Shown in pieces: positions 4,135-61,495 of a stretch of DNA of 64,000 bases. The position numbers were made by a program, and so were the translations under genes. Location of the stretch: NCBI GenBank assembly GCA_022496785.1, contig SNAP01000007.1:62147-126146 (forward strand), in the 5' to 3' direction. Position 1 is the stretch's first letter. The number at the start of each line of letters is the position of its first letter. This stretch comes from Marinilabiliaceae bacterium JC040 (GTDB lineage Bacteria > Bacteroidota > Bacteroidia > Bacteroidales > Marinifilaceae). Below the pieces are notes generated by a model. That model did no database searches. It worked only from the letters and a program-made list of their open reading frames with translations, and was not told where the DNA came from.

Positions 4135-4986
4135 TTAATAAGATATTGTTTCTCCCAATTTTACTCTTTGTGCATTCACAGCTCCATTCTTCAAATCATC
4201 TCCATAAATTACAAAAGCTACAAGTTCACAATTTTCCACTTTATAATCTTCTACTGAAACCTTAAAGTTTTTTCTAACTAACCTTCCTTTTTTAGTAAGA
4301 TCACTGCTTATTGTTTCGCCTAATATATTTGTAAGATTCTTTCTTAAAACATGCATATGAGAATAATTCTTAATATCATTCGGCATATCGTAATACTTAC
4401 TATCCTTATAGAATACATTATTAGAATAATCGTTTTGTTGTCGTCCAATAACTTTATTTTCTAGAAGCAATACAACTAATTTTAAAGGTCTTTCATACGA
4501 TTCTGCAAAAGCTAATTCCACATCCACATTTGCAGTACTACCTTCTACTTTAGTCTTTAATGAGATTCCTAAACTTACTTCATCAGAAGTATCTTTACTA
4601 GGATCTTCACACATCCACTCCTTACCTTCACATCTATTAAAAATGATTGTAGGAAGTCCATCAATTGAAAAATCTTTGTATAAATTCTTACCAGCATCAA
4701 CTTCTAAGTTATCATTCTGATAAAGAGAAATAGGAATGAAATTATCATTCTTAGAATATTTCTCAATATACTCTATAGCTCTAAGACTCACTCCACACAT
4801 TGTAGAAGTATAAAATTCAACAATCACTTTGTGTTGAATATCTTCAGATCTGATAACAGTTGTTTTATTATCATCCTTTGGATCATTATTCTTCTCATCT
4901 TCTTTTACAGAATTACTTGTTCCTTTTGAACATGAAACAATAGCTATTAGACTTATAAAGCCTAATACATACAATAGTTTTTTCAT
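4135..4986 (-). CDS. Omp28-like lipoprotein with degenerate CxxC
   Basis: A 283-residue paralogue of the gene at 3047. They share the C-terminal half, including RPLKLVVLLLENKVIG, HVLRK and the ending VNAQRVKLG. The signal peptide ends in the lipobox AIVSC (Cys19). The N-terminal Ig-like domain of the paralogue is missing and replaced by a short acidic, Asn/Asp-rich linker. At the thioredoxin site the sequence is TMCGVS, so only the first Cys (Cys64) remains and the resolving Cys is Ser67. It could still act as a monothiol protein or have become purely structural or binding. It lies 31 bases after the DUF6029 gene. Confidence 0.8.
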   Translation of the reverse strand: MKKLLYVLGFISLIAIVSCSKGTSNSVKEDEKNNDPKDDNKTTVIRSEDIQHKVIVEFYTSTMCGVSLRAIEYIEKYSKNDNFIPISLYQNDNLEVDAGKNLYKDFSIDGLPTIIFNRCEGKEWMCEDPSKDTSDEVSLGISLKTKVEGSTANVDVELAFAESYERPLKLVVLLLENKVIGRQQNDYSNNVFYKDSKYYDMPNDIKNYSHMHVLRKNLTNILGETISSDLTKKGRLVRKNFKVSVEDYKVENCELVAFVIYGDDLKNGAVNAQRVKLGETISY

Positions 4987-5017
4987 TTTATTATTAGTTT
5001 AGTTTATTATGCCATAT

Positions 5018-6607
5018 TTAGAATCGAGTAGAAATACTCAAACTAAAAGCATTCATAGATGGAATCATTCTACAAACACCTCCTACACAAGTAATTCCTC
5101 CTCTTTGTCTTCCATAGCTAGCTATCAATTTTGTTGCTCCATGAGAATAAGTTGCTCCAGCAGAATAATAATGAATTTTAGAATTTTCATTACCATAATT
5201 ATAATCATCACCCACATAAAAAGAGAAACGAGGAGCGAAAGACAATTCTACTAAAGCAGCCATCCACGAACGCATATCGTTATCAGCATATAGATGTTGT
5301 AGTTCAACTCGTAGAGATTTTCTTCTTGCCATTTTATAAGTCATATCTAGAATGCAAACCTGAGGTTTCACAATAAACTTCTTAGTATGCTCTAAAACTC
5401 CTTTATTATATTCTTGAAAATGGTAAGTAAAAATTGTTTTAAATTTCTTATTCCATTTCTTAGTCATTTCAAAACTAAAATCTTTATAATAATTAGTACC
5501 ATTAAAAGACAAAAATTCTTGCTTTCCTTTTTTCTCTTCTAAAGCATTTAATATTGAACAATTAAAAGCTAATTGAGTACCATATTTACCACCTAAAAAA
5601 GAATTCCTTTTAAATTTATACATTAAATCGAACTGTGCTCCAATCTCACTATCTGTCTGACTTGCATAAACATAAATATTGCTTAAAGAATAAGAATGTT
5701 GTTTCACTAGTACAGGAATATAGTTAAGAGAAAGATATGGAGGAATTGAATTTCTCTGACTTGAATAAGTCATATGATCAACACATCTAAATATATAATT
5801 AAAAGTTAAACCTTTAAAATAAGAAGAACCATTTACCAAAAGAGCTTTGCCCTTAGGGATGATAATTCTCAAATCTTCATTAAAATCTTTTCCCTTCTCG
5901 ACATATTCGACAGATATATTAGCATTTTCACTTTCAAAATCACATCTTGCAGAATAAGCATCAACAGCAGTAGGAACATTATCTACTGGTCCTGAATAAT
6001 CTTGAAAACGACTTACAAACGATCCTCCAAAAACAATATTATATGAAGATTTCTCAAAAAGCACTTTTTTCAAAGATATATCGAAATCGGCACCTCTTAC
6101 TTTTCCAACACCTCTTTCAAAACCAAAACGATGCTGACCTGCTACACCTTTAAGTCGAACAATATCTTTAAAATTATAAGCAAGTTTTACACCATCTAGA
6201 GAATTATCAATACCTAACTGTCTTTCTTCAAAAGATCTCAATATTAAACCAGAACCAAATTGTTCATAAAAATTACCTACTGTAATAAACAAATCTTTAG
6301 AGTTGAAGGATATATATCTATTAGCAATATCCGACCCCTTATACATATTTCTATCATACCCAATCAAAGCAGGTAAATACGATTCATATCTTAATCCAGC
6401 AGTAAAATTCTTAAAAGTATATTTACATGTAAGATAATTATTACTAGCAAATCTATCATCCAAAGTCTTAATTCCCAATTTATTATCTTTAAAATAATAA
6501 TTAGAATTAGATTCAAAACTTCCACTTAATTGTCCATATTCTTGAGCTGATACTGAAGATATTAGAATAAATAGAAGTCCTATACTAAGTAAAAATCTAT
6601 TTTTCAT
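5018..6607 (-). CDS. DUF6029-type outer-membrane beta-barrel protein
   Basis: A 529-residue protein with a cleavable signal ending SSVSAQ, followed by alternating amphipathic beta-strands to a terminal aromatic residue (SISTRF). This is the pattern of an outer-membrane barrel. Length and the opening EYGQLSGSFESNSNYYFKDN fit the DUF6029 family of Bacteroidota, whose function is not established. Its start overlaps the end of the TlpA-like gene by 11 bases, which implies translational coupling. The operon suggests that the barrel works with secreted thioredoxin-fold proteins. Confidence 0.75.
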   Translation of the reverse strand: MKNRFLLSIGLLFILISSVSAQEYGQLSGSFESNSNYYFKDNKLGIKTLDDRFASNNYLTCKYTFKNFTAGLRYESYLPALIGYDRNMYKGSDIANRYISFNSKDLFITVGNFYEQFGSGLILRSFEERQLGIDNSLDGVKLAYNFKDIVRLKGVAGQHRFGFERGVGKVRGADFDISLKKVLFEKSSYNIVFGGSFVSRFQDYSGPVDNVPTAVDAYSARCDFESENANISVEYVEKGKDFNEDLRIIIPKGKALLVNGSSYFKGLTFNYIFRCVDHMTYSSQRNSIPPYLSLNYIPVLVKQHSYSLSNIYVYASQTDSEIGAQFDLMYKFKRNSFLGGKYGTQLAFNCSILNALEEKKGKQEFLSFNGTNYYKDFSFEMTKKWNKKFKTIFTYHFQEYNKGVLEHTKKFIVKPQVCILDMTYKMARRKSLRVELQHLYADNDMRSWMAALVELSFAPRFSFYVGDDYNYGNENSKIHYYSAGATYSHGATKLIASYGRQRGGITCVGGVCRMIPSMNAFSLSISTRF

Positions 6608-7100
6608 TTTTCACCTCCAACAACTTTTCATAAACAACATCCTCATCACCAGCAACATATGATGAATGCTCCCAAACTATCTTTCCATTCTTAATTATAA
6701 ACACATGAGGAATTAAATTAATACCTAATGCTCTTTTCAAATTTTGATTATCATCTAAATATATATCATACTGCCAATCTCTACCCTTTACAAAAGATTT
6801 CACTCTTGAAGAGCTTCTTGAATCGTCTATAGAAACAGCAATAAATTTAACTCCTGTTTCCTCCTTCCAATCGTCTAACAGATCAGCAACAGCAGTCAAT
6901 TCTGCAATACATGGTTTACACCAAGTTGCCCAAAAAGAAAGAATAACAATTTTATCTTTTTTAACAACTTCTTTTATATCAACAGTCTCACCATTGAATT
7001 TCTTTAATCTTACACTTGGAACACTTTTTTGAGCAAACAAAAAAGAACTCATCATAATTAATAAACCTACAATTATTAGTTTTTTCATAATTTCTTTCAT
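6597..7100 (-). CDS. TlpA/ResA-like periplasmic thioredoxin
   Basis: A 167-residue exported protein, with a signal ending SFLFAQ, and one thioredoxin domain. The active site is WATWCKPC (Cys61/Cys64) and the cis-Pro loop is LIPHVFII. The AhpC/TSA-Redoxin type of insertion typical of TlpA/ResA is visible. The function is likely reduction of periplasmic disulfides. It is the first gene of the operon TlpA, DUF6029 barrel and two Omp28-like lipoproteins. The ATG at 7100 and an in-frame ATG four codons later (7088) are both possible starts, and either leaves the signal intact. Confidence 0.88.
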   Translation of the reverse strand: MKEIMKKLIIVGLLIMMSSFLFAQKSVPSVRLKKFNGETVDIKEVVKKDKIVILSFWATWCKPCIAELTAVADLLDDWKEETGVKFIAVSIDDSRSSSRVKSFVKGRDWQYDIYLDDNQNLKRALGINLIPHVFIIKNGKIVWEHSSYVAGDEDVVYEKLLEVKNEK

Positions 7101-7303
7101 TTAAGTAGACAAAATTAACAATATTTCTTATTAATTATACAAAGACTAACTTTATGTTACAATTAGATTAAGTATTTTAACTTTTCTTTACATTAAAATT
7201 TAGATAAATTAACAGTTTTTTAACATCTCATTTGTAAAAACTACAAAATATGTATTAGCCTTAATAAAATGATGAAAAAATAACATCCAATAACTTTTAA
7301 TTG

Positions 7304-7335
7304 TTTGCAATCGATAAAATTATAATGTACTTTTA
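7304..7335 (+). promoter_or_regulatory. promoter and start context of pepD
   Basis: A -33 TTTG (7304-7307) lies 20 bases before TACTTTTA (7328-7335), one base from TAnnTTTG. Transcription would begin near 7341, which excludes the in-frame ATG at 7336. A GGAGGT Shine-Dalgarno (7371-7376) lies 7 bases before the chosen ATG at 7384. Confidence 0.55.
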
Positions 7336-7383
7336 ATGCAAAGTTTAAATTATCAAAGTAAAAATAAAGCGGAGGTAAATATT

Positions 7384-8847
7384 ATGAGCGAAGAAATAAA
7401 AAATCTAGAACCAAAAGAAGTTTGGGAAAACTTCTATCTATTAACACAGTGTCCACGTCCTTCAAACCACGAAGAGAAGGCAAGAGAAGCAGTAATGAAC
7501 TGGGCAAAAGAACGTAATTTCGATGCTGAAATAGATGAAACAGGAAACATTATAATTAGAAAAGCAGCTACTCCAGGAATGGAAGACAGAATGGGTTGTA
7601 TTTTACAAGGTCACTTAGACATGGTTCCACAAAAGAACAATGATACAGTACACGACTTTGAAAAAGATCCTATTGATGCATACGTAGAAGGAGAATGGGT
7701 TACTGCAAGAGGAACAACTCTTGGAGCTGACAACGGTATGGGTGTAGCAGCAGGAATGGCTTTACTAGAATCAACAGATATACCTCACGGACCTATTGAA
7801 GTACTTATTACAGCAACAGAAGAAACTGGAATGGATGGAGCAGAAAATCTAAAACCAGGTGTTCTTAAAGGAGATATCTTATTAAATCTTGATTCTGAAA
7901 CAGAAGGAGAATTATATGTAGGATGTGCAGGAGGTATTGATGGTAACTTCACTTTCAACTACAAAAATGTTGATGTTCCTGCAGGAGTAAAAGCATGTAA
8001 TGTAGAGATTAAAGGTCTTAAAGGTGGTCACTCAGGAATGGATATTATTTTAGGAAGAGGAAACTCTAACAAACTATTATTCCGTTTCATTAAAAAAGCA
8101 TATAGAGAATTAGGTGCTAGATTAGTATCTGTTAATGGTGGTTCTCTTAGAAATGCTATTCCTCGTGAGTCTATGGCAACAGTTGTTGTACCAGAAGCTA
8201 ATGTAGAAGCATTTGTAGCATTAAAAGAAGAATTTGAAGCAATCTTCAAAAGTGAATTTAAAGCTGTTGAACCAGATTTAGAATTTAAACTTGAAGCATG
8301 CGACACTCCATCTCAAATGATTGAAGAAAAAGTTCAATTAAACCTTATCAATGCAGTATTAGCTTGTCCTAATGGTGTAATGAGAATGAGTGATGCTATG
8401 GAAGGACTTGTTGAAACTTCAAACAACCTTGCATTTGTAGAAAGCAAAGATGGTGTTATCACTATTAGCTGTCTACTTCGTTCTGCTGTAGATTCTGCAA
8501 AACTTGCTCTTGTAGAAGTTATGACTTCTGTATTCGAAATGGCACAAGCAGATACTATCGATTTCACAGGAGAATATCCAGGATGGCAACCAAATATGGA
8601 ATCACCTATCCTTAAAACAATGCAAGAAACTTACAATAAAATGTTTGGTTCTGTACCTGAAATTAAAGCAATTCACGCTGGTTTAGAGTGCGGTCTTCTA
8701 GGTCATACTTACCCTAACTGGGATATGATTTCTTTCGGACCAACAATCCAATCTCCTCACTCACCAGACGAAAGAGTAAATATTGCATCTGTAGGTAAAT
8801 TCTGGGATTTCTTTAAAGAAACTCTTAAGAACGTTCCTACTAAATAA
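7384..8847 (+). CDS. pepD: aminoacyl-histidine dipeptidase (M20C)
   Basis: A 487-residue cytosolic metallopeptidase that cleaves dipeptides such as Xaa-His (carnosinase-like). The M20 metal sites are visible in order: GHLDMVP, LGADNGMG, TATEETGMDGAENL and, near the end, HAGLECGLLG. The lid/dimerisation domain lies in the middle, around KGGHSGMDI. I chose the ATG at 7384 because it has a rare good Shine-Dalgarno, and because the inferred transcript starts after the alternative ATG at 7336. The length is normal for PepD. It is a single-gene transcript closed by a strong terminator. Confidence 0.92.
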   Translation: MSEEIKNLEPKEVWENFYLLTQCPRPSNHEEKAREAVMNWAKERNFDAEIDETGNIIIRKAATPGMEDRMGCILQGHLDMVPQKNNDTVHDFEKDPIDAYVEGEWVTARGTTLGADNGMGVAAGMALLESTDIPHGPIEVLITATEETGMDGAENLKPGVLKGDILLNLDSETEGELYVGCAGGIDGNFTFNYKNVDVPAGVKACNVEIKGLKGGHSGMDIILGRGNSNKLLFRFIKKAYRELGARLVSVNGGSLRNAIPRESMATVVVPEANVEAFVALKEEFEAIFKSEFKAVEPDLEFKLEACDTPSQMIEEKVQLNLINAVLACPNGVMRMSDAMEGLVETSNNLAFVESKDGVITISCLLRSAVDSAKLALVEVMTSVFEMAQADTIDFTGEYPGWQPNMESPILKTMQETYNKMFGSVPEIKAIHAGLECGLLGHTYPNWDMISFGPTIQSPHSPDERVNIASVGKFWDFFKETLKNVPTK

Positions 8848-8865
8848 TATATGTTCTAAATATCC

Positions 8866-8891
8866 AAAAGGGGAGCTTTTGCTCCCCTTTT
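8866..8891 (+). terminator. rho-independent terminator of pepD
   Basis: An 11-bp stem with core GGGGAGC/GCTCCCC has a TTTT loop and a T run. It also has flanking A residues and may work for the convergent gene. Confidence 0.88.
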
Positions 8892-8902
8892 TTATTTTGA
8901 TT

Positions 8903-9793
8903 CTATGAATTATTCTTTTTAAATCTTTCTACTGCTTTTACAAATAATACTATAGTATTAACAATTTCATCTTGTTCATATTTATACATATTATTTATAC
9001 TTACATCAGAGAAACATGAATCCGATTTTCCTATAATTGTATTATAAGCTTGATAATTTCCATAAAAGAAAGATATATCCATTCCTGTCTCATCAATAAA
9101 AGCTTCTTTTTGAGTTTTAGCCTTATGAAATTCTTTTTGTGTAAAAATACCAGAGATTTTTAAAACTCTTGTTCTCTTATCTATAGCAAATTGATATATA
9201 TTATTTGTTTCAACACAATATTCCTCTCTATAGATAACGTCAACCTTTCTACTAAGAAACATAGATAATTCATCACAAATATCGTTCTTCCATTTAGTAG
9301 AATATGTTTTTGCTTTAAAAACAAAACTGTCATCTTCAATTAACCTTTTCTCTACTTCTTTAGAACGTTTAGCAATTTTTTCTTTTTCTATATTTGTTTT
9401 CAAATATGTAGACTTATACTCACATAATTCATTATATTCTCTAATGTTAGAGGTTTTGTATGCTATTTCCAAAGAATTAATTTCAGAACTTAAAAGAAGG
9501 TTTAAAGAACTTACTACTGCATATTTTTCATTGAAATAAATTTTACTGTGTAAATTCTTTATTTGCAAAGGTATAAGCCCTAGTTTCTCAACTTCTTTTA
9601 CTGTTTCTTTTTCACCTTCTCTTACATAAAATGTAATCTTAACTCCTCTTTTTATAGCTTCTTTTAATTTATCTACTAATCTAAACCATTTACTAATCTT
9701 TACATATGGTGAAACTAGTACTACTTCTTTTTTTGCTTCTTCAATAAGAGTTAAAACCTCTCCTGATATTAAATTGGGCTTTAATAATTTCAT
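8903..9793 (-). CDS. phospholipase-D-superfamily protein
   Basis: A 296-residue cytosolic protein. The N-terminal half resembles one PLD/nuclease domain. It opens with VVLVSPYVKIS, then has an RGVKITFYVRE strand and one HKD-like motif, NLHSKIYFNEKYAVVSSLNL (about residues 101-120), in which the usual Asp is replaced by an Asn/Glu stretch. The C-terminal half (about 150-296) contains no motif I recognise. Single-HKD proteins usually dimerise to make an active site. Known family roles include nucleases and restriction-type enzymes. It is the second gene of a pair with the UDG-like gene, 22 bases apart. Confidence 0.65.
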   Translation of the reverse strand: MKLLKPNLISGEVLTLIEEAKKEVVLVSPYVKISKWFRLVDKLKEAIKRGVKITFYVREGEKETVKEVEKLGLIPLQIKNLHSKIYFNEKYAVVSSLNLLLSSEINSLEIAYKTSNIREYNELCEYKSTYLKTNIEKEKIAKRSKEVEKRLIEDDSFVFKAKTYSTKWKNDICDELSMFLSRKVDVIYREEYCVETNNIYQFAIDKRTRVLKISGIFTQKEFHKAKTQKEAFIDETGMDISFFYGNYQAYNTIIGKSDSCFSDVSINNMYKYEQDEIVNTIVLFVKAVERFKKNNS

Positions 9794-9815
9794 TAGATTC
9801 TATAGCCGTTAATTT

Positions 9816-10553
9816 TTAATCTATATCTTCAATTTTATTAATCAACTTTGTAATAGCTCTACTATGTTTGAATTCATCCTTACATTGCGGATGTTTAGAT
9901 ATTATATAATATTTTGATTTAATTTTACACACTTTTGTTTTATATTCACCCCATGATGCCTTATCAATATATTTCAATTTTTCTCCATTATTTAAATAAG
10001 TTAGAAAATCATCTTCCCAATCAGAGGTAAAAAAAATCACATACTTTGGAGACATTATTGATATCTCTTTTTTTAATATTTTAGCACAAGTTTCAAATTG
10101 TAAAGATTTAGTTGATTCTGAAGTATTTCCACCTTTTTTAGGAGAAAGTTTATACAAATTATTCCAAGCTATTTTTCTATACCACTCTTCTTCATTAGTA
10201 TGATATATTTCTTGAGATATGTTTTTTATTAATCTCCAGAATGCAGATTTATTTGTATTATAACCTTCAGTATTACCTTCACATTCAACGACCCAACGTA
10301 ATTGTTCTTTCTTAGAAACTAAACTATTTTTAGTATTTCCAAATAATACATTCAAATTTAATGAACCATTATCCGAACCATTTAAACACTTTCCAACAAA
10401 CATTATTCCTGAATTATTAGTTTTAGGAAATTTTTCACCCCATTGAACCGAAAAGACAGAATCACCTTTCTTAGAATAATTATCAATTAAATCTGAATAC
10501 AATGGTTTTAATTTTTCTATAAACTCTTTTCTAAAATCTTTCATTACTATCAT
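9816..10553 (-). CDS. possible uracil-DNA-glycosylase-fold protein
   Basis: A 245-residue cytosolic protein. Three segments resemble the uracil-DNA glycosylase superfamily in the right order: a first strand NSGIMFVGKCLNG, a middle IAWNNLYKLSP and a late IISKHPQCK, where the family has its catalytic or binding HPS. The match is by eye only and a true glycosylase is not proven. An in-frame ATG at 10544 is an alternative start. The gene precedes the PLD-like gene by 22 bases on the same strand, and the pair may form a small nucleic-acid-processing unit. Confidence 0.5.
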   Translation of the reverse strand: MIVMKDFRKEFIEKLKPLYSDLIDNYSKKGDSVFSVQWGEKFPKTNNSGIMFVGKCLNGSDNGSLNLNVLFGNTKNSLVSKKEQLRWVVECEGNTEGYNTNKSAFWRLIKNISQEIYHTNEEEWYRKIAWNNLYKLSPKKGGNTSESTKSLQFETCAKILKKEISIMSPKYVIFFTSDWEDDFLTYLNNGEKLKYIDKASWGEYKTKVCKIKSKYYIISKHPQCKDEFKHSRAITKLINKIEDID

Positions 10554-53322: not shown

Positions 53323-53352
53323 TTTGAAATAATAAAAAAAATTTTACTTTTG
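53323..53352 (+). promoter_or_regulatory. promoter of the B12 uptake locus
   Basis: TTTG (53323-53326), an 18-base spacer, and TACTTTTG (53345-53352) match both elements. Transcription would start near 53358, at the 5' edge of the riboswitch. Confidence 0.65.
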
Positions 53353-53355
53353 TAT

Positions 53356-53525
53356 CCGTTGGTGTAGCTAGTGCAAACTAGCAACTTAATAGGGAATCTC
53401 GTGAAAATCGAGGACTGTACCCGCAGCTGTAAGCTCCAATAACTTTATGGAAATCAAAAACCACTGTTATAAAATAACGGGAAGGTAAACATAAAGGGAG
53501 TAAGTCAGAAGACCTGCCACAAAAT
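53356..53525 (+). promoter_or_regulatory. cobalamin riboswitch
   Basis: Diagnostic elements of the RF00174 class are all visible: GGTGTAGC at the 5' side, AGGGAATC, GTGAAAATC, GGACTGTACCCGCAGCTGTAAG, and the B12 box AAGTCAGAAGACCTGCC at about 53502-53518. It lies between the promoter and the first BtuG-like gene. Downstream, GCTTT(53537)...AAAGC encloses CGGGAGTT, which can alternatively pair with AATTCCC near 53596; this may be the expression platform. B12 binding is expected to shut off the operon. Confidence 0.95.
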
Positions 53526-53646
53526 ATATTATTCAAGCTTTCGGGAGTTAAAGCAAGTATAATGAAATACTATTATATAATATTTCTTTTTACTTAATTC
53601 CCTGTGGCTGTATTTGTAATACAATAATACACAATAGATAAGTAAA

Positions 53647-55224
53647 ATGAAAAATTACGTTAAACATTTAATTTGGGCTTTTTTAGGTTTAGCCTTAGCA
53701 GTATCTTCTTGTAAAAAAGACGACACAATTCCAAAACCTCTTATAGAAAACTCTAAAACAGCGTTTGAAATTTATACTGACGAAAGCGTAAGTATAGAAC
53801 CTAAAGTTACTTCAGAAGGAGAATCTACTTATAAATGGGTAGAAGATGAAAAAGAAATATCAAAAGAACCTATTTTGGTATACACTTCAAAAGAAGTAAA
53901 AGAACACACAATAAGTCTAACAGTAATAAATGACGGTGGAGAATCTAAAATTGACTATACTGTAAATGTAAAGGCAATACCTCTTCCTACTGTTGAAATT
54001 CCAAATAAAGATGGCAAGGTAAACGCTAAAATACATAGCGAAACAACCATTACTCCTACTATTAAAAGTATAAGAAATGTAACTTACAAATGGGTTTTAA
54101 ACGAAGAAACTCTTTCAACAGAAAAAATTCTAAAATACACTTTCAAAAAAGAAGGAACTTTCAATCTTAAACTTATAGCAACAAACTCTAGTGGTTCTAC
54201 AGAAAAGGTGATTAAAGTTGAAACTTCAAACTACTTTGCTAATGGAGTTTTTGTTCTAAACGAAGGTAATATGACTAGCGAAAGTGGATTCGTTAATTTT
54301 ATATATCCAAACGGAAGTAGAATCGATTATGCATACAAGAATGCTAATTCAGGAACTCAATTAGGTAACGTAATACAAGATATGTGGTTAGCAAATGGTA
54401 AAGCATACTTTGTTGCTCAAAATGGACCTGAACAAATAACAGTTGCAAATGCTCAAACATTAGTAAAAGAGAAATCTTATACTAAAGATGGTAAACTAAG
54501 TTGGCCTACACATATTGTTGTTGCAAGCAATTCTAGAGCATATGTTAGAGACAATTCTGGACTTCATGCTGTAGATATTAGCGGAGAAATCACTCCTCAC
54601 ACAGAAGTAATTTGCAAAGCAAATAAACAAATAATGGACTATATCAAAGGTAAAGTATATGTTGGAGGAGAAAATATTATCAACATTATTAACCCAGAAA
54701 CAGATAAAGTAATAAAAACAATAGAGCTAGATGCTAAAATAACTTCTGGAATAAAAGAAGGAAAAGATCAATGTATATGGGTATCTACAAACAATAACAG
54801 TCTTTATAAGATTAATACAACTACAGATGCAATCATAAAAAGATATTCAATTCCTACAGAATTCTCAATGAAAGCTGGTTTCATTCCTTCTAATGGATTA
54901 TGTGCTAGTAAACAAGAAGATATTGTATATTGGAAATCATCATCTTGGGGTAAAGCATACCTATATAAGTTTGATGCTTCTACTGAAAAAGCAGAACTGT
55001 TTATTGATTTTAAGAAAGAATATACCGATTCTAATATCACATACGGTGAAGTTGCTGTTCACCCTGTAACAGGAAATATTTATATCGATCTAATTAAAGG
55101 ATATGGAGCCGATTATCTTATTAATTTCTTATATGTTATTGCTCCTGATAAGACATTAGTACAAACGCATAAAAACTGTACTCATTTTCATACTTCATGC
55201 TATTTCACTGAAGATTTTAAATAA
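53647..55224 (+). CDS. BtuG-like beta-propeller lipoprotein with PKD domains
   Basis: A 525-residue lipoprotein (lipobox AVSSC). Two PKD/Ig-like domains (about 30-110 and 115-192) precede a seven-bladed YncE/DUF5074-type propeller (about 198-525), starting at FANGVFVLNEGNMTSESGFVNF. BtuG of Bacteroides is a surface propeller that binds B12 with very high affinity and feeds BtuB. This gene is the first after the cobalamin riboswitch, which supports the same role. The second PKD module is closely related to one in the gene at 56625. A terminator-like hairpin follows. Confidence 0.82.
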   Translation: MKNYVKHLIWAFLGLALAVSSCKKDDTIPKPLIENSKTAFEIYTDESVSIEPKVTSEGESTYKWVEDEKEISKEPILVYTSKEVKEHTISLTVINDGGESKIDYTVNVKAIPLPTVEIPNKDGKVNAKIHSETTITPTIKSIRNVTYKWVLNEETLSTEKILKYTFKKEGTFNLKLIATNSSGSTEKVIKVETSNYFANGVFVLNEGNMTSESGFVNFIYPNGSRIDYAYKNANSGTQLGNVIQDMWLANGKAYFVAQNGPEQITVANAQTLVKEKSYTKDGKLSWPTHIVVASNSRAYVRDNSGLHAVDISGEITPHTEVICKANKQIMDYIKGKVYVGGENIINIINPETDKVIKTIELDAKITSGIKEGKDQCIWVSTNNNSLYKINTTTDAIIKRYSIPTEFSMKAGFIPSNGLCASKQEDIVYWKSSSWGKAYLYKFDASTEKAELFIDFKKEYTDSNITYGEVAVHPVTGNIYIDLIKGYGADYLINFLYVIAPDKTLVQTHKNCTHFHTSCYFTEDFK

Positions 55225-55229
55225 AAAAC

Positions 55230-55265
55230 AATTTAGGACATAAAACAATTATGTCCTAAATTTTA
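55230..55265 (+). terminator. terminator-like hairpin inside the B12 locus
   Basis: A perfect 13-bp stem (55230-55242 with 55250-55262), a 7-base loop and a short T run. The next gene of the locus starts 58 bases later on the same strand. Confidence 0.75.
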
Positions 55266-55322
55266 ATTCCCAATATTTTACTTAAGAAACGTATTATTAC
55301 GAACAAAAAAACTAAACACATT

Positions 55323-56612
55323 ATGAAGAAAAAATTAAGTTTAAGTCTAAAGTTTATACTACTTCTATTTCTAGTATATTCTTGTTCTGAAGATTCATAT
55401 CTTTCAGATAACGAACCACTATTTGAAAGCAACAACATTAAACTTTCAACTATTTCTAACAACCTTCCAATAGATTACAAAAATGGAGTATATGTAGTTA
55501 TGGAAGGCAATATGTCTGATCAAAATGGTAGTCTGTCATTTATAGATAATTCAGGTAAAATTCATCCTTCAATATATTTTAGTGCGAATAAAACGTATGT
55601 TGGCAATGTTCTACAAGATGTATATGTATACGACAACAAGATATATATGATTACACAAAATGGAAGTAAGAATGGTGGAGATGGAAGATTTGTTGTTGCA
55701 GATGCAAAAACAATGAAACGAGAAAAAATTTATTCTGGTTCAGGCATTAATGATTCTAAAATATGGCCACAACACATCACTGTTATTAATAAAGACAAAG
55801 CCTACATAAGATACTCAACATCCGATCTTGAAAAATCATCTGGAATAAGAATCTTCAATTTTAAAAGTGGAAAATTATCTAGTGAAGATATAAATGGAAC
55901 AAGAGGAGCATTTACTGTCTCTGGCTCAACAAAAATAAGAATGGTATTATATAATAATAAAGTATTTGCTCCTTGTGGACATGATTTATGCATTATTGAT
56001 ACAAAAACAGATAAAATAATTAAAAGAATATCTTTTAAGAAACAAATAAAAGGAATAGTAAAAGGTCATGATGGTAATATATGGATGACTATAGCTGGTA
56101 CATATACAGGAAACCAAAATTGGGGAACTACCTACACAAGTCCATCTACAATAGTAGGAATCAATCCTACAACATATAATATTATCAAAACTGTAAATCT
56201 TCCTTCTGGCATGAATTTCCCTGTTGCCACATGGACTCCTTCAATCGGAATGAGTGCTAGCTATACAGAGAATGCAATCTTTTTCTGGAATGGTCCTTTT
56301 AAAGCTTATTCTGTATACAGATATGATATAAACACAGGATTAATAAAAGAACTTATAAATATAGAAAATGAAGAAGATTTAAGTGGTTATACAGTATATG
56401 GATATGTAGGTACAGATAATAAAAACAATTTATACATAGGAACAACAAACTACTTAAGTACAAAAATTATTGTAATAGATTCTAAGACAGGAAAAAGAAA
56501 AGATATCAGATATCTACAAATGGATAAAGATCAAGATAATAAAATAGACAATTACTATTTCATCAATAGTGGTAGTCCATCAGGAATAGACTCATATTAT
56601 AGATTTAAATAA
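55323..56612 (+). CDS. BtuG-like beta-propeller lipoprotein without PKD domains
   Basis: A 429-residue lipoprotein (lipobox LVYSC). After a short linker the DUF5074/YncE propeller begins at YKNGVYVVMEGNMSDQNGSLSF, clearly paralogous to the gene at 53647 and to that at 60431. All have G-V/L-F/Y-V...EGN, a GNVLQD/GDVAQS element and a WPQHITV/WPTHIVV/PRYIHFV strand. It probably binds cobalamin or a related corrinoid at the cell surface. It is 12 bases before the PKD lipoprotein gene. Confidence 0.8.
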   Translation: MKKKLSLSLKFILLLFLVYSCSEDSYLSDNEPLFESNNIKLSTISNNLPIDYKNGVYVVMEGNMSDQNGSLSFIDNSGKIHPSIYFSANKTYVGNVLQDVYVYDNKIYMITQNGSKNGGDGRFVVADAKTMKREKIYSGSGINDSKIWPQHITVINKDKAYIRYSTSDLEKSSGIRIFNFKSGKLSSEDINGTRGAFTVSGSTKIRMVLYNNKVFAPCGHDLCIIDTKTDKIIKRISFKKQIKGIVKGHDGNIWMTIAGTYTGNQNWGTTYTSPSTIVGINPTTYNIIKTVNLPSGMNFPVATWTPSIGMSASYTENAIFFWNGPFKAYSVYRYDINTGLIKELINIENEEDLSGYTVYGYVGTDNKNNLYIGTTNYLSTKIIVIDSKTGKRKDIRYLQMDKDQDNKIDNYYFINSGSPSGIDSYYRFK

Positions 56613-56624
56613 AAAGCATTAAAA

Positions 56625-58319
56625 ATGAAACAATTATCATTAAAGATTCTAATAGGAATCTTAGGACTTTGCTTATGTGTTTCATCATGTAAAGATGAAG
56701 ATATAGCACCAGCAAAAGTAAGTTTTGAAATCCCAGTAGAAGGTTACAACGCCTATATGGGAGATGAAATCATCATTAAACCAACAGTAGAAAGTAAAAG
56801 TGGTGTTACTCACGAATGGATTGAATTAGAGAAAGTAATATCAAGAGAAGCTACTCTTAAATATAAAAGTTTAAAACCTGGAGTACACATCATCAAATAT
56901 ATAGCAACAAACGATGATGGAAAAACAGAAGAAACAATAAACATCACAATTAAAAAAGTAGACAAACCTGTAATTGAAATAAAAGTTCCATCTACAGGAT
57001 TCGAAATTGCTAAAGAAAAGACTTTAAAGATTGAAGCTAAAATTACTTCAATAAAAGAATGTAAATACGAATGGAAAGAAGGAGATAAAGTCATTTCAAA
57101 CGAACTAATTCTTAATTACAAATCAAAAGAAGTAAAAGAACACAAACTAAAATTAAAAGTTACAAACATAGGAGGTTCAGCAGAAAAAGAAATCACTATT
57201 AATGTTGTAACAACAGAAAAGCCAACTGCCACATTTGGAGACAAAAAAATATTCTATGGAGAAAGAAATAAAAGTTTGGTAATTAAACCTACTGTAAAAA
57301 CAGAAGGAGAAACAACATATAAATGGTTAATAGATGGTGTTATTTATTCAAAAGTAAAAGATTTAACATACATACCAAATAAAAATGGTTGTACACTTCT
57401 TACCTACGAAGTCACTAATAATGCAGGATCAAATAGCTACAATTTAAACCTAATAGTAGGATATAGAGCCATCACTGAATCTTCATCACTACAAGTTAAT
57501 AAAGTGTACGAATTCAGACCAGCTCCAGGACAATTTGTAAACGAAAGTTACACATGTAATACAATGGAAGAAGCAAATGAATTCGCATTAAAAGCTCTAC
57601 ATGATAAAAACATGTACCTATCTCTAGGAGGTTTTGGAGGATATGTAGTAATGGGATTCGATCATAGCATAATAGATAGAGAAGGAAAAGATGTACTAAT
57701 TAAAGGAAATTCATTTACAGGTCCTAGTGGATGTAGTTGCGAACCAGGAATTGTAGAAGTAATGCAAGACACAAATGGTAATGGTCTACCAGATGACGAA
57801 TGGTACGAACTAAAAGGAGAAAACTATGATGATGCAACAACAATCAAAGAATATGAAATCACATACTTCAGACCAGAATCTCCAAGTCAAAATGTAAAAT
57901 GGAAAGACAACCAAGGAAATGAAGGATGTATCGATTACTTAGGAATGTTCCATTCTCAGCCATACTATTATCCATTATGGATAGCAGAAGATTCATATAC
58001 TCTTAAAGGAACTAGATTAAAAGCTAGAACTGTACAAGATCCTAGTACAGGTTTTTGGTCAAATATGATGTTTGAAAAAGGATATGTAGACAATTATGAA
58101 ATACAAGCAGATGAAGACATCAATGATATAAATAATGAATCATCATACGGAGGTAATACATTTGAAATAAGTAATGCTATTGACAAACATGGAAATCCAG
58201 TAAAATTAGGATTTATAGATTTTGTTAAAGTATACACAGGTGTAAATGTAAAAGCTGGATGGTTAGGGGAAAACTCTACAGAAATCTTTGTTATTGAAGA
58301 TTTACCTATAAAAAAATAA
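56625..58319 (+). CDS. PKD-domain surface lipoprotein of the B12 locus
   Basis: A 564-residue lipoprotein (lipobox CVSSC). Three PKD/Ig-like domains (about 28-112, 113-195 and 197-277) precede a distinct C-terminal domain (about 285-564). That domain has GGFGGYVVMGFDHSI, SGCSCEPGIVEVMQDTNGNGLPDDEWYELKG and a calcium-like DTNGNGLPDDE loop. This domain occurs in Bacteroides surface proteins near btuB/btuG. It could correspond to a second type of cobalamin binder (BtuH-like), but that is my inference. A strong hairpin follows. Confidence 0.72.
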   Translation: MKQLSLKILIGILGLCLCVSSCKDEDIAPAKVSFEIPVEGYNAYMGDEIIIKPTVESKSGVTHEWIELEKVISREATLKYKSLKPGVHIIKYIATNDDGKTEETINITIKKVDKPVIEIKVPSTGFEIAKEKTLKIEAKITSIKECKYEWKEGDKVISNELILNYKSKEVKEHKLKLKVTNIGGSAEKEITINVVTTEKPTATFGDKKIFYGERNKSLVIKPTVKTEGETTYKWLIDGVIYSKVKDLTYIPNKNGCTLLTYEVTNNAGSNSYNLNLIVGYRAITESSSLQVNKVYEFRPAPGQFVNESYTCNTMEEANEFALKALHDKNMYLSLGGFGGYVVMGFDHSIIDREGKDVLIKGNSFTGPSGCSCEPGIVEVMQDTNGNGLPDDEWYELKGENYDDATTIKEYEITYFRPESPSQNVKWKDNQGNEGCIDYLGMFHSQPYYYPLWIAEDSYTLKGTRLKARTVQDPSTGFWSNMMFEKGYVDNYEIQADEDINDINNESSYGGNTFEISNAIDKHGNPVKLGFIDFVKVYTGVNVKAGWLGENSTEIFVIEDLPIKK

Positions 58320-58326
58320 TATAATA

Positions 58327-58392
58327 AAATCTCAAAGTTCTAAAGAAAGACTTTTTCTATTGGGTTTAGTATTTAGAACTTGAGGTTTTTTT
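58327..58392 (+). terminator. terminator-like hairpin before the btuB-like gene
   Basis: AAAATCTCAAAGTTCTAAA (58327-58345) pairs with 58372-58390, with one bulge and one G-T pair, and seven Ts close it. The receptor ATG lies 18 bases downstream. Confidence 0.72.
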
Positions 58393-58409
58393 ATAAAAAA
58401 GAATTAATA

Positions 58410-60431
58410 ATGAAATTAATCTTAAAAATATCATTTAGTATCATTATATCATTTCTGCTCTTTACTGAAGTAAATGGACAGATTTACAATTTAAAAGATA
58501 CGGTAAAGCTACATGAAGTCACAATCTTTGGTAAAAGAAAGATAGAACAAATTGGAGTAACACGAACAAAAGTTGATTCAACAGTACTTAAATCATCAAT
58601 TTGCAATACACTAACAGAAGTTCTATCTCAAAACACAACAATTTACATAAAAAGTTACGGTAGAGGTTCTATGTCAACAGCCTCATTTAGAGGAACAGCA
58701 CCATCCCACACTCAAGTCAGTTGGAACGGAATGAAACTAAACTCACCTATGCTTGGAATGGTCGACTTCTCACTTATACCATCATATTTTATCGACGATT
58801 TAACCCTACTACACGGAGCAGGATCTGTAGATGTAAGCGATGGAGCATTAGGGGGAGCAATTGTATTAACAAACAAAAAGATTAAAGAAAAATATAAACT
58901 TCATTTCATACAAGGAATTGCAAGTTATAATACCTACGATTCATACTTAAAGTTTAATTATTCACTTGGTAAATGGTATTTTTCTTCAAGACTATATCAT
59001 GTTCAATCAAAGAATGATTTTTCATATAGAAATCTAGATAAATCCTTAGAATGGCAAATTGATAGCAAGGGAAGAAAATATAAAACTGTTGAAGATGCTC
59101 CAAAAGATTACAACAAGAATGGAGAATTTCAAAATAGCCACTATCTTCAAGAAGTATACTACAAACTAGATAATTTCAACAAATTCTCATTTATAAGTTG
59201 GCTATATCATTCAGATAGAAGTCTACCCACCCTTACAGTAAATTGGAGCGATCTTGATAAACTAAATACTAATAAACAAGAAGATTTAGGAATACGATCT
59301 GTTTTCAGTTGGAAACATACCAAAGAGAAATACGACATATTAGGAAGATTAGGGTATTCATATAACGAATTAAACTATCTTCTTAAAAACAAAGTAACAA
59401 ACGGCACAAATATAGCCATAAACTCACGTAGTAAAGTAAAGAATATCTACTCAGAAATAAACTCAAGCTACTACCCTATTAAAGATTTTAAAATCACTGG
59501 AAAAATAAACTACAATCTTTTCAATGTAGATTCCTATGAATCTAAAAAGAGAACAGGATACATAAAATACAGATCAGAGTTATCAACATATTTAGCTATC
59601 AGATATAAAGCATTTGGATTTTGGGGTTTATCTTATAATGTAAGAAAGACATTCAACAACGACATCACCTCTCCCCTAATAAATGCATTCTTAACAGACT
59701 TTCTAATATGGAAAAAATACAATCTAATTTTAAAATCTTCAATAGTTAAAAACTATCATATACCCACTTTAAACGACTTATACTTTATACCTGGGGGTAA
59801 TCCCAATTTAAAAACAGAAGATGGTAAAACTGTAGATGTAGGCTTAGAATTTTCTAAACCTCTAGAAAAAGGATTAATATCAGGATCAGCAACATACTAC
59901 TATTCAGATATAAAAAACTGGATTGTTTGGATTCCAACATTCAAAGGATTTTGGGAACCTAAAAACGTAAGAAAAGTTATAGCTAAAGGGATAGAATTAA
60001 AAATGACTTTCCAAAAAGAGATTGGAGATTGGAAAATCTATTCCAGTGGAACATGGGGACAAACAATATCAACAAATCACGGAGATCCTACCTCTTGGGG
60101 AGATGAATCTGTTGGTAAACAATTGATTTATGTTCCTAAATACTCTTCAAGCTTAATGACAAGAATACAATACAAGAAATATTTCATCTCTCATAAATAT
60201 TACCACTATAGTAGAAGATTCACAACATCGAGTAACGATATAACAGAAAGAGACGATGTACTTCCATTCATCATGAACAACCTAACAATAGGTAGATCAT
60301 TTAAAATAAAGAAAATAAATTTAGATGTAAGTTGTATAATAAACAATCTATTTGACGAACAATATCAATCTGTTTTAAAAAGACCTATGCCACTTAGGAA
60401 CTACAATTTATTAATTTCAATTCAATTATAA
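58410..60431 (+). CDS. btuB: BtuB-like TonB-dependent cobalamin receptor
   Basis: A 673-residue outer-membrane receptor from the ATG at 58410; an in-frame TTG ten codons upstream lies in the terminator-like hairpin and was rejected. The signal ends EVNGQ, and a TonB-box-like DTVKLHEVTIFGK follows. The plug has SYGRGSMSTASFRGTAPSHTQVSWNGMKLN and VDVSDGALGGAIVLTNK. The barrel ends with NLLISIQL. The riboswitch and three BtuG-like partners indicate B12 or corrinoid import. Its stop and the next start share a base (TAATG). Confidence 0.85.
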   Translation: MKLILKISFSIIISFLLFTEVNGQIYNLKDTVKLHEVTIFGKRKIEQIGVTRTKVDSTVLKSSICNTLTEVLSQNTTIYIKSYGRGSMSTASFRGTAPSHTQVSWNGMKLNSPMLGMVDFSLIPSYFIDDLTLLHGAGSVDVSDGALGGAIVLTNKKIKEKYKLHFIQGIASYNTYDSYLKFNYSLGKWYFSSRLYHVQSKNDFSYRNLDKSLEWQIDSKGRKYKTVEDAPKDYNKNGEFQNSHYLQEVYYKLDNFNKFSFISWLYHSDRSLPTLTVNWSDLDKLNTNKQEDLGIRSVFSWKHTKEKYDILGRLGYSYNELNYLLKNKVTNGTNIAINSRSKVKNIYSEINSSYYPIKDFKITGKINYNLFNVDSYESKKRTGYIKYRSELSTYLAIRYKAFGFWGLSYNVRKTFNNDITSPLINAFLTDFLIWKKYNLILKSSIVKNYHIPTLNDLYFIPGGNPNLKTEDGKTVDVGLEFSKPLEKGLISGSATYYYSDIKNWIVWIPTFKGFWEPKNVRKVIAKGIELKMTFQKEIGDWKIYSSGTWGQTISTNHGDPTSWGDESVGKQLIYVPKYSSSLMTRIQYKKYFISHKYYHYSRRFTTSSNDITERDDVLPFIMNNLTIGRSFKIKKINLDVSCIINNLFDEQYQSVLKRPMPLRNYNLLISIQL

Positions 60432-61495
60432 TGAAAAGTTTAAGATATATATTAATACTCTTTATTTGTCTAATAAGCATGACATCTTGCATGGATGAAA
60501 TTGTTAGATATCAGAAAAAAATAGATTCCAGTTCAAGAGGATTATTTATTACAAATGAAGGAAATTTCATGTATGGTTCTGCTTCATTATCATACTATAA
60601 TATCAAAGAAAAGAAAGTAGAGAATGACGTATTCTATTCTGTAAATGGTATTCCATTAGGAGATGTTGCTCAATCTATGACAATTCACAATGGTATAGCA
60701 TATATAGTTGTAAACAATTCAAATGTAATATTTGGAATAGACCCAAACACATGTGAATTAAAAGGTATGATAACAGGGTTAATATCACCAAGATACATAC
60801 ATTTTGTAAGTGATACCAAAGCATATGTTACCGATTTATATGAATTTGCAATAACAGTAATTAATCCTAAGACATTTGCAATAACAAAGAAAATAGATGT
60901 AAAGGTTCCTGGAATTAATCAACACCCTACGGAACAGATGGTACAGTATAAGAATTTCTTATTTATAAACTGTTGGTCATACGACAATAAAATACTTGTT
61001 TTAGATACCAATACCGATAAGGTAGTAGATGAAATTACAGTACCTATTCAACCTACATCTTTAGCTATAGACAAATACAACAAAATATGGACTGTAACAG
61101 ATGGTGGTTACGAAGGTAGCCCATATGGACACGAAGCTCCATCTCTATTGCGAATAGATGCAGAAACAAGAAAAATAGAAAAGAAATTCACATTCGAATT
61201 TGGTGATTGGCCTTCTGAAGTTTGTTTAAATGGTGCACGAGATACTTTATATTTTATAAACAAATCGGTATGGCGTTTAAATGTAAAAGCTAATGAGTTT
61301 CCCAAGAAACCATTTATTCCATTTAAAAAGACAAAATTCTATGGTCTAACAGTCGATCCTGTTACTAGTGAAGTCTATTTAGCTGATGCAATCGACTATG
61401 TTCAGAAAGGAGTCGTTTATAGATATACAGCCTCTGGAAAAGAAGTTGATAGATTTAAAGTTGGTATTATACCAGGTGCTTTTTGCTTTAAATAA
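60431..61495 (+). CDS. btuG: BtuG-like beta-propeller lipoprotein
   Basis: A 354-residue lipoprotein (lipobox MTSC) consisting almost entirely of a seven-bladed YncE/DUF5074 propeller. Repeated elements include SRGLFITNEGNF, INPKTFAITKKIDV, LDTNTDKVVDEI and WTVTDGGYEGSPYGHEAPSLLRIDAETRKI. Its size and its position immediately behind btuB (ATG overlapping the TAA) are those of classical BtuG. It probably forms the lid that hands B12 to the receptor. It ends the operon, with a terminator after it. Confidence 0.87.
   Translation: MKSLRYILILFICLISMTSCMDEIVRYQKKIDSSSRGLFITNEGNFMYGSASLSYYNIKEKKVENDVFYSVNGIPLGDVAQSMTIHNGIAYIVVNNSNVIFGIDPNTCELKGMITGLISPRYIHFVSDTKAYVTDLYEFAITVINPKTFAITKKIDVKVPGINQHPTEQMVQYKNFLFINCWSYDNKILVLDTNTDKVVDEITVPIQPTSLAIDKYNKIWTVTDGGYEGSPYGHEAPSLLRIDAETRKIEKKFTFEFGDWPSEVCLNGARDTLYFINKSVWRLNVKANEFPKKPFIPFKKTKFYGLTVDPVTSEVYLADAIDYVQKGVVYRYTASGKEVDRFKVGIIPGAFCFK

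Follow-up and report, generated by a model that had tools for sequence, protein, structure and literature searches.

A riboswitch-headed btu operon with two predicted accessory propeller lipoproteins in Marinilabiliaceae bacterium JC040

The window analysed here is a stretch of 64,000 nucleotides from Marinilabiliaceae bacterium JC040 (GenBank assembly GCA_022496785.1, contig SNAP01000007.1, positions 62,147 to 126,146 of the forward strand). It contains a cobalamin riboswitch followed by five co-directional open reading frames, called A to E below (53647-61495). From sequence comparisons and structure models we consider it probable that these form a riboswitch-controlled operon for corrinoid uptake across the outer membrane, of the type known from Bacteroidales, in which A and B are accessory corrinoid-binding surface propellers that work like BtuK1 of Bacteroides thetaiotaomicron. 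An initial annotation of this DNA had proposed a B12 uptake operon in which such a riboswitch heads five genes that include three propeller lipoproteins for one receptor, and this outline is borne out by the riboswitch match, by the identities of C, D and E and by the predicted folds of A and B. The features are as follows, with positions given in the window.

53343-53535, plus strand: RF00174 cobalamin riboswitch at the head of the operon (cmscan, 103.5 bits, E 8e-25)
53647-55224, plus strand: gene A, 525 aa, with a lipoprotein signal (Cys22), two PKD domains and a DUF5074 propeller of clade K (Pfam, model, tree)
53716-54231, plus strand: residues 24-195 of A, two PKD-like (Ig-like) domains (PKD_3; own PKD profile, for which these domains were themselves used)
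54244-55206, plus strand: propeller domain of A, residues 200-520 (own K profile, of which A is a seed; BtuK1 9s6c, Z 32.0)
55323-56612, plus strand: gene B, 429 aa, with a lipoprotein signal (Cys21) and a DUF5074 propeller of clade K, without PKD (Pfam, VIA, tree)
56625-58319, plus strand: gene C (btuH), a 564 aa lipoprotein with three PKD domains and a BtuH B12-binding domain (7biz_A)
57483-58310, plus strand: residues 287-562 of C, the BtuH domain (aligned with 20 others; own profile)
58410-60431, plus strand: gene D, 673 aa, BtuB-type TonB-dependent transporter, from an ATG at 58410 (the frame is also open from a TTG at 58380)
60431-61495, plus strand: gene E, 354 aa, BtuG, the predicted lid lipoprotein of D (8bmx_D)

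Fold, clade and pocket of A and B

DUF5074 was matched in Pfam at 177.6 bits by A, together with PKD_3 in two stretches, and at 199.4 bits by B, among whose Pfam matches no PKD family was found. In a search of Protein Data Bank (PDB) sequences, the best matches of A and B to BtuG chains were at about 1e-6. AlphaFold models, built from 36-row alignments, had a mean predicted local distance difference test score (pLDDT) of 85.5 and a predicted template modelling score (pTM) of 0.77 for A, with residues 1-51 under 50, and of 86.6 and 0.87 for B. These models were compared with known structures by VIA, and rows differing by less than 1 Z were treated as tied. For both A (Z 30.7-32.0) and B (28.4-33.2) the top 13 matches are BtuG/BtuK-type propellers, namely BtuG1-3, 3dsm, BtuK1 and BT1487, which is BtuK2. 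With A, BtuK1 (9s6c) scored 32.0 (root mean square deviation 2.6, 304 aligned), 3dsm 32.0, BtuG2 31.9 and BtuK2 (4r5o) 30.7, and beyond this group 1l0q followed at 27.9 and others at 25.6 and below. With B the values were 33.2 for BtuG3 (8okv), 33.0 for BtuG2, 32.0 for BtuK1 and 28.4 for 4r5o, followed by 1l0q at 27.6 and others at 26.2 and below. The first Foldseek match of A is 4r5o (446 columns, E 4.2e-20) and that of B is BtuG2. A and B are thus predicted to adopt propeller folds, on which the initial annotation had partly staked its reading. In the PDB, 9s6c is entitled "B12 Binding protein - BtuK1"; a literature search, with subscription papers mostly outside its scope, found no paper on this entry. 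Near the C-terminus of B (window 56523-56549), in a region modelled with low confidence, the stretch DKDQDNKID resembles a calcium-binding loop by eye; it was not seen in the displayed alignment of the nearest relatives, from loci L049 and L055.

The propellers compared were those of the window and of loci picked out by DUF5074 score, BtuH domain or similarity to A, 226 domains in all, and a tree was made of the 218 that were left after identical ones had been dropped. A more careful tree of 67 rows held 26 domains of clade K, 5 chosen and 14 random members of clade G, 14 random members of clade D, 4 others from the D side and 4 PDB sequences. Both trees give the same three groups, and the supports quoted here are from the smaller one. 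Clade G contains the product of gene E together with BtuG2 and BtuGH (99/94). Clade D contains BtuK1 and BtuK2 (98/92), with the rows L056 and L063, which are not from btu loci, on the same side. Clade K, separate from both, consists of A, B and 24 others (100/99). Only E is therefore in the BtuG clade, and the idea that A, B and E are three alternative BtuGs, as the initial annotation would have them, was rejected. Nor do A, B, BtuK1 and BtuK2 make up one clade; when A was held with BtuK1 and BtuK2, only these three rows being constrained, the approximately unbiased (AU) test gave a p of 2.8e-15. BtuK2 sits on a long branch and the root of the tree is not fixed, which leaves room for a wider grouping of clade K with BtuK; L034, L193 and others also drew long-branch warnings, among them the pair L057 and L059, which the tree joins. 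By architecture, the combination of PKD domain and DUF5074 propeller that marks a BtuK lipoprotein is found in A but not in B, and A shares PKD_3 and DUF5074 with the BtuK1 orthologue of locus L163. A and B are not a recent tandem duplication, because a tree holding the pair together is rejected (p-AU 4.5e-07) and B groups with L049/L055 at 100/99; A joins the long-branched L193 at 93/92. No assay of any protein of clade K was found in the literature, within the same search scope.

After inspection of the positions conserved across all three clades (218 rows), five were named as a pocket signature: E55, N84, G89, Q or N at 93, and Y316. The numbering is that of BtuG2 and agrees with ten residues named in PMC10404256. 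That paper names the Asn54-Thr64 loop, which contains E55, and also Trp194, Tyr239, Trp272, Tyr316 and Tyr335; N84, G89 and Q93 would, by inference, be further corrinoid contacts. All five residues are present in 105 of the 115 members of clade G, in 22 of the 26 of clade K (A and B included) and in 64 of the 73 of clade D, a count that leaves out four DUF5074 proteins from outside btu loci (L048, L053, L056 and L063). They are kept in A, B, BtuG2 and BtuK1, the last of which is reported to bind cyanocobalamin with a Kd of 8.9e-11 M by surface plasmon resonance (PMC12751083). BtuGH, a binder, has F316. BtuK2, reported in the same paper not to bind cobalamin, has D at positions 55 and 93 and a gap in place of Y316, so that three of the five are lost and N84 and G89 retained, and the controls L056 and L063 are without E55, Q93 and Y316. 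On these sequences the signature fits the reported binding data, which cover few proteins. It is predicted that A and B bind corrinoids, because the five residues of BtuG2 and BtuK1 are kept in them and three of these are lost in the non-binder BtuK2.

The riboswitch, the operon and genes C, D and E

The riboswitch exceeds the gathering score of RF00174 (31.5 bits) more than threefold, and model positions 1-189 are all covered. Behind it follow A (two PKD domains and a propeller), B (a propeller), C (three PKD domains and BtuH), D (BtuB) and E (BtuG); neither Pfam nor our own PKD profile matched a PKD domain in B or E. The genes are separated by 98 bp (A-B), 12 bp (B-C) and 60 or 90 bp (C-D, for the TTG or the ATG start of D), and D and E overlap by 1 bp. 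Because of these short gaps and this overlap, A to E likely form a single operon. An inverted repeat of 14 pairs lies between A and B (window 55230-55262) and is terminator-like on the minus strand only; given this repeat, expression of A may possibly differ from that of B-E. A scan for promoters returned 35 matches, fewer than in shuffled sequences (mean 56.8), and two terminator-like sites against 2.4 expected, and is uninformative.

On their translations, A, B, C and E open with hydrophobic residues that lead to a cysteine (Cys22, Cys21, Cys22 and Cys20); for C and E an earlier cysteine was also picked out. The motifs that begin with this cysteine (CKKDD in A, CSEDS in B, CKDED in C and CMDEI in E) resemble the export signal that PMC6143338 describes for Bacteroidetes lipoproteins, and these four products are putative surface-exposed lipoproteins. 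With C counted as a BtuH, the candidate corrinoid-binding lipoproteins of the operon number four rather than three.

The fourth, C, had been described initially as PKD plus an unknown domain. The PKD part is correct, with PKD_3 matched in three stretches. The other domain is not unknown, and that label was rejected; it is BtuH, a binding module overlooked by the earlier reading, for which a B12 complex has been solved. C matches BtuH2 (7biz_A) at E 2.1e-89 in the PDB sequence search and is identical to it at 142 of 273 aligned residues of the BtuH part. The residues around B12 in BtuH2 are given in PMC8941943 as Q333, N399, H476, Y510, W511, W577, F401 and L578; C keeps seven of these eight, the exception being Y510, which is F. 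C thus has both the C-terminal domain and the B12 contacts of a BtuH.

D has the TonB plug and barrel in Pfam. Four PDB sequences were matched at E up to 0.01, all of them BtuB entries and three below 1e-147; BtuB2 (8bmx_C, E 3.9e-149) and BtuB3 (8p97_A, 2.7e-148) are close and BtuB1 (8blw_A, 3.2e-17) is weakly similar. Plug, barrel and closest chains thus identify D as a BtuB. Its best NCBIfam family is TIGR01779, the TonB-dependent vitamin B12 receptor (E 1.8e-19), at 69.8 bits, below the cut-off of 599.7. E matches BtuG2 (8bmx_D) at E 7.6e-142 and DUF5074 at 80.4 bits (Pfam). It is 62% identical to BtuG2 over 312 columns and lies with it in a four-row clade supported at 100/100, within clade G.

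The genome (2.56 Mb in 117 contigs, 95.7% complete) has five cobalamin riboswitches, and PF02310, a B12-binding family, is found in two of its genes. A second BtuB-like gene, 31% identical to D, stands with a BtuG-like gene on contig C87, which also carries two FecCD-type permease genes. That locus, L034 (G000:C87:42000-60000), comprises at 4361-9900, besides the BtuB-like and BtuG-like genes, a cobalamin riboswitch and a TonB receptor that carries a carboxypeptidase-regulatory-like domain; the BtuG-like protein has Y aligned at signature position E55. Three more cobalamin riboswitches lie at G000:C57 42987-43180 and 49150-49360 and at G000:C92 108838-109025. As judged from its genes, this bacterium plausibly scavenges corrinoids.

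Known parallels and the distribution of propellers

A known btu arrangement recurs here in variant form. Cobamide locus 1 of B. thetaiotaomicron is btuK1-btuK2-btuH1-btuB1-btuGH-btuJ1 (BT_1486-1491; PMC12751083). The names and binding of BtuK1 and BtuK2 come from this paper, the available text of which does not use the word propeller; the structures are PDB 9s6c and 4r5o, and BtuK2 (BT_1487) has a PKD domain and a propeller. Locus 1 was checked on a near relative, L163, whose BtuGH has an H domain 89% identical to that of B. thetaiotaomicron. L163 has the gene order of locus 1 and two cobalamin riboswitches; its K1 is PKD_3 plus DUF5074 (291.5 bits) and matches 9s6c (E 8e-188), and its K2 matches 4r5o (E 3e-201). 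The operon shares with locus 1 the order of two accessory propellers, BtuH, BtuB and BtuG under a cobalamin riboswitch, and a first gene with PKD and DUF5074. It differs in that it has a BtuB and a BtuG of the BtuB2/BtuG2 type, its BtuG is not fused to BtuH, no BtuJ (DUF4465) is among its five genes, it has one riboswitch rather than the two of L163, and A and B lie outside the BtuK clade.

Other parallels are partial. In the btuB-btuG-btuH-K loci of B. xylanisolvens and B. acidifaciens (L168 and L167) the fourth gene encodes a DUF5074 lipoprotein of the clade of A and B, with PKD in L168, and a riboswitch is in the locus; unlike the window, they have one K-clade propeller rather than two, and it is downstream of btuB rather than upstream. 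L194, L046 and L065 have an accessory propeller, BtuH, BtuB and a BtuG close to E in the order of the window, but the first propeller is of D type. BtuG2 and BtuG3 (PDB 8bmy and 8okv) share with A and B the fold and the five-residue signature, and E is a close relative of BtuG2, whereas A and B are 20-22% identical to these two over structural alignments and belong to a separate clade. BtuH2 (PDB 7biz) resembles C in its three PKD domains and BtuH domain, the substitution at Y510 apart.

DUF5074 was found in 259 of the 295 genomes of the same order that were searched. For a census of propellers per receptor, the best 80 of 590 loci were taken by match to the BtuH domain of B. thetaiotaomicron BtuGH, cut at 10 kb or at contig ends and scanned with our own profiles at 40 bits or more; B. 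thetaiotaomicron itself is not among these 80. Among 70 same-strand btuB runs in these 80 loci, 2 had no propeller, 30 had one, 20 two and 18 three, so that 38 of the 70 had at least two. These numbers include runs with split btuB frames (L067 and L091), and the three propellers of L091 include one split btuG, without which there are two. The census and locus 1 of B. thetaiotaomicron argue against an exceptional arrangement, and three propellers per receptor were rejected as an exceptional feature. Several Bacteroidales btu loci (L088, L090, L107, L134, L144 and others) encode very large proteins, of 1800-2150 aa in the five named, with a D-type propeller.

From the DUF5074 list 31 loci were fetched, and all except L065 were scanned for riboswitches; a cobalamin riboswitch was found in 21 of these 30. 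Of the other nine, five have btuB (L041, L044, L058, L059 and L064) and in four (L048, L053, L056 and L063) btuB was not found in the fetched stretch. In L048 (8359-18531), where neither riboswitch nor btuB was found, the 912-aa DUF5074 protein has all five signature residues and is neighboured by what by eye resemble genes for SusC, SusD and a fucosidase; it is possibly a use of the propeller fold unrelated to B12. In L056 (6416-9302) and L063 (5335-8226), which are from two genomes, the DUF5074 gene lacking the signature is divergent from what by eye is an S-adenosylmethionine synthetase gene, with a SAM-II riboswitch between them.

Clade K is associated with btu genes. Besides the window there are 21 K-clade loci, of which 17 have a cobalamin riboswitch and 3 more have btuB (L058, L059 and L191), making 20 of 21 with either. 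In L185, L188, L054 and L060 the K gene is directly behind its own riboswitch. A more specific proposal is that the clade of A and B is one of surface propellers that bind corrinoids, the third after BtuG and BtuK and recurrent in Bacteroidales btu loci, which would serve in first-contact capture or as a store that feeds BtuG/BtuB, possibly with a corrinoid preference of its own and with some members behind their own riboswitch. For this proposal as a whole we see the balance as even.

A model for corrinoid capture and its alternatives

The operon may be pictured to work as follows. When intracellular corrinoid is low, the riboswitch would permit expression, and D would import corrinoid using TonB energy. 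E would be the hinged lid of D that captures corrinoid and releases it to BtuB; such a transfer was proposed for B. thetaiotaomicron from structures and simulations (PMC10404256) and is applied to D and E by homology. C would be a second surface binder of B12. The same pocket on the propeller face is most likely where A and B bind the corrin ring, and by capture or storage they would concentrate corrinoid locally and supply it to BtuG/BtuB. The identities of C, D and E, the folds of A and B, clade membership and the shared pocket-side residues come from sequence or model; we infer surface exposure, corrinoid binding by A and B, hand-over between the proteins and a function of PKD domains as stalks. 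By analogy with what has been proposed for many B. thetaiotaomicron lipoproteins, accessory corrinoid capture appears the most likely role of A and B.

Several observations weigh against this picture. The signature was chosen after looking at the alignment, and it is not exclusive to btu loci, since the control L048 keeps all five residues and L053 three (E55, N84 and Y316). At other conserved positions A and B differ from BtuG2 (S94D, N107Q and R133T/Q). A lacks the beta5A loop that BtuG2 has, whereas in B this loop is present and longer, and B has M for N54 and no equivalent of Y335. The 11-kb contig that carries the K-clade gene of L193 has no riboswitch and no btuB. A propeller encoded in such an operon need not bind cobalamin, as the case of BtuK2 shows (PMC12751083). 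Finally, accessory lipoproteins need not raise uptake, because B. thetaiotaomicron without loci 1 and 3, btuJ2, btuH2 and btuL outgrew the wild type at low cobalamin (PMC12751083). BtuH2, on the other hand, was needed for efficient uptake in PMC8941943, and the two papers thus point opposite ways on the value of accessory binders even in B. thetaiotaomicron.

Two further readings are compatible with capture by A and B. The first is a spatial relay, put forward as staged capture in the initial annotation, in which the PKD-bearing proteins A and C would catch corrinoid far from the membrane and pass it to B and then to E and D. The distribution of PKD domains among the five products is in keeping with this, and co-operative, stepwise transfer among B. 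thetaiotaomicron lipoproteins is suggested in PMC12751083. Against it, BtuH2 was not enriched when BtuB2 was immunoprecipitated, nor was BtuG2 robustly enriched with BtuH2 as the bait (PMC8941943). PKD is also not constant in these propellers: 36 propeller proteins from all clades were aligned, some of them represented by the domain only, and 14 of them matched PKD_3. We regard a relay as conceivable, with the chances somewhat against it. The second is a division by ligand, in which A, B and E would serve different corrinoids (differing in upper or lower ligand or in side chains) and one BtuB would have a wide range. A, B and E are not alike in the beta5A loop or at positions 94, 107 and 133, which speaks for it, as do the separate lineages of A and of B, but on the whole it seems to us unlikely.

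Slightly less likely still is that A and B no longer bind corrinoids and are kept for a structural or vesicle-related role, for although BtuK2 is a non-binder of like architecture and the first Foldseek match of A, and BtuL is reported not to bind and to promote early vesicle release (PMC12751083), A and B keep the residues that BtuK2 has lost, as do most members of clade K. BtuK1 and BtuK2 are themselves among the proteins put into early vesicles in B. thetaiotaomicron (PMC12751083). A vesicle role for A and B is thus possible by analogy; it is not favoured, because only vesicles bearing BtuJ1 or BtuJ2 delivered cobalamin in the same study.

If the signature is wrong, what we have described is an ordinary btu operon. 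Its interest lies in an apparently unassayed third clade of propellers, to which two of the three propellers here belong, and in a signature that would predict binding. The surface lipoproteins with which gut Bacteroidales compete for B12 are growing in number, and the signature may provide a cheap prediction of which accessory propellers bind corrinoid.

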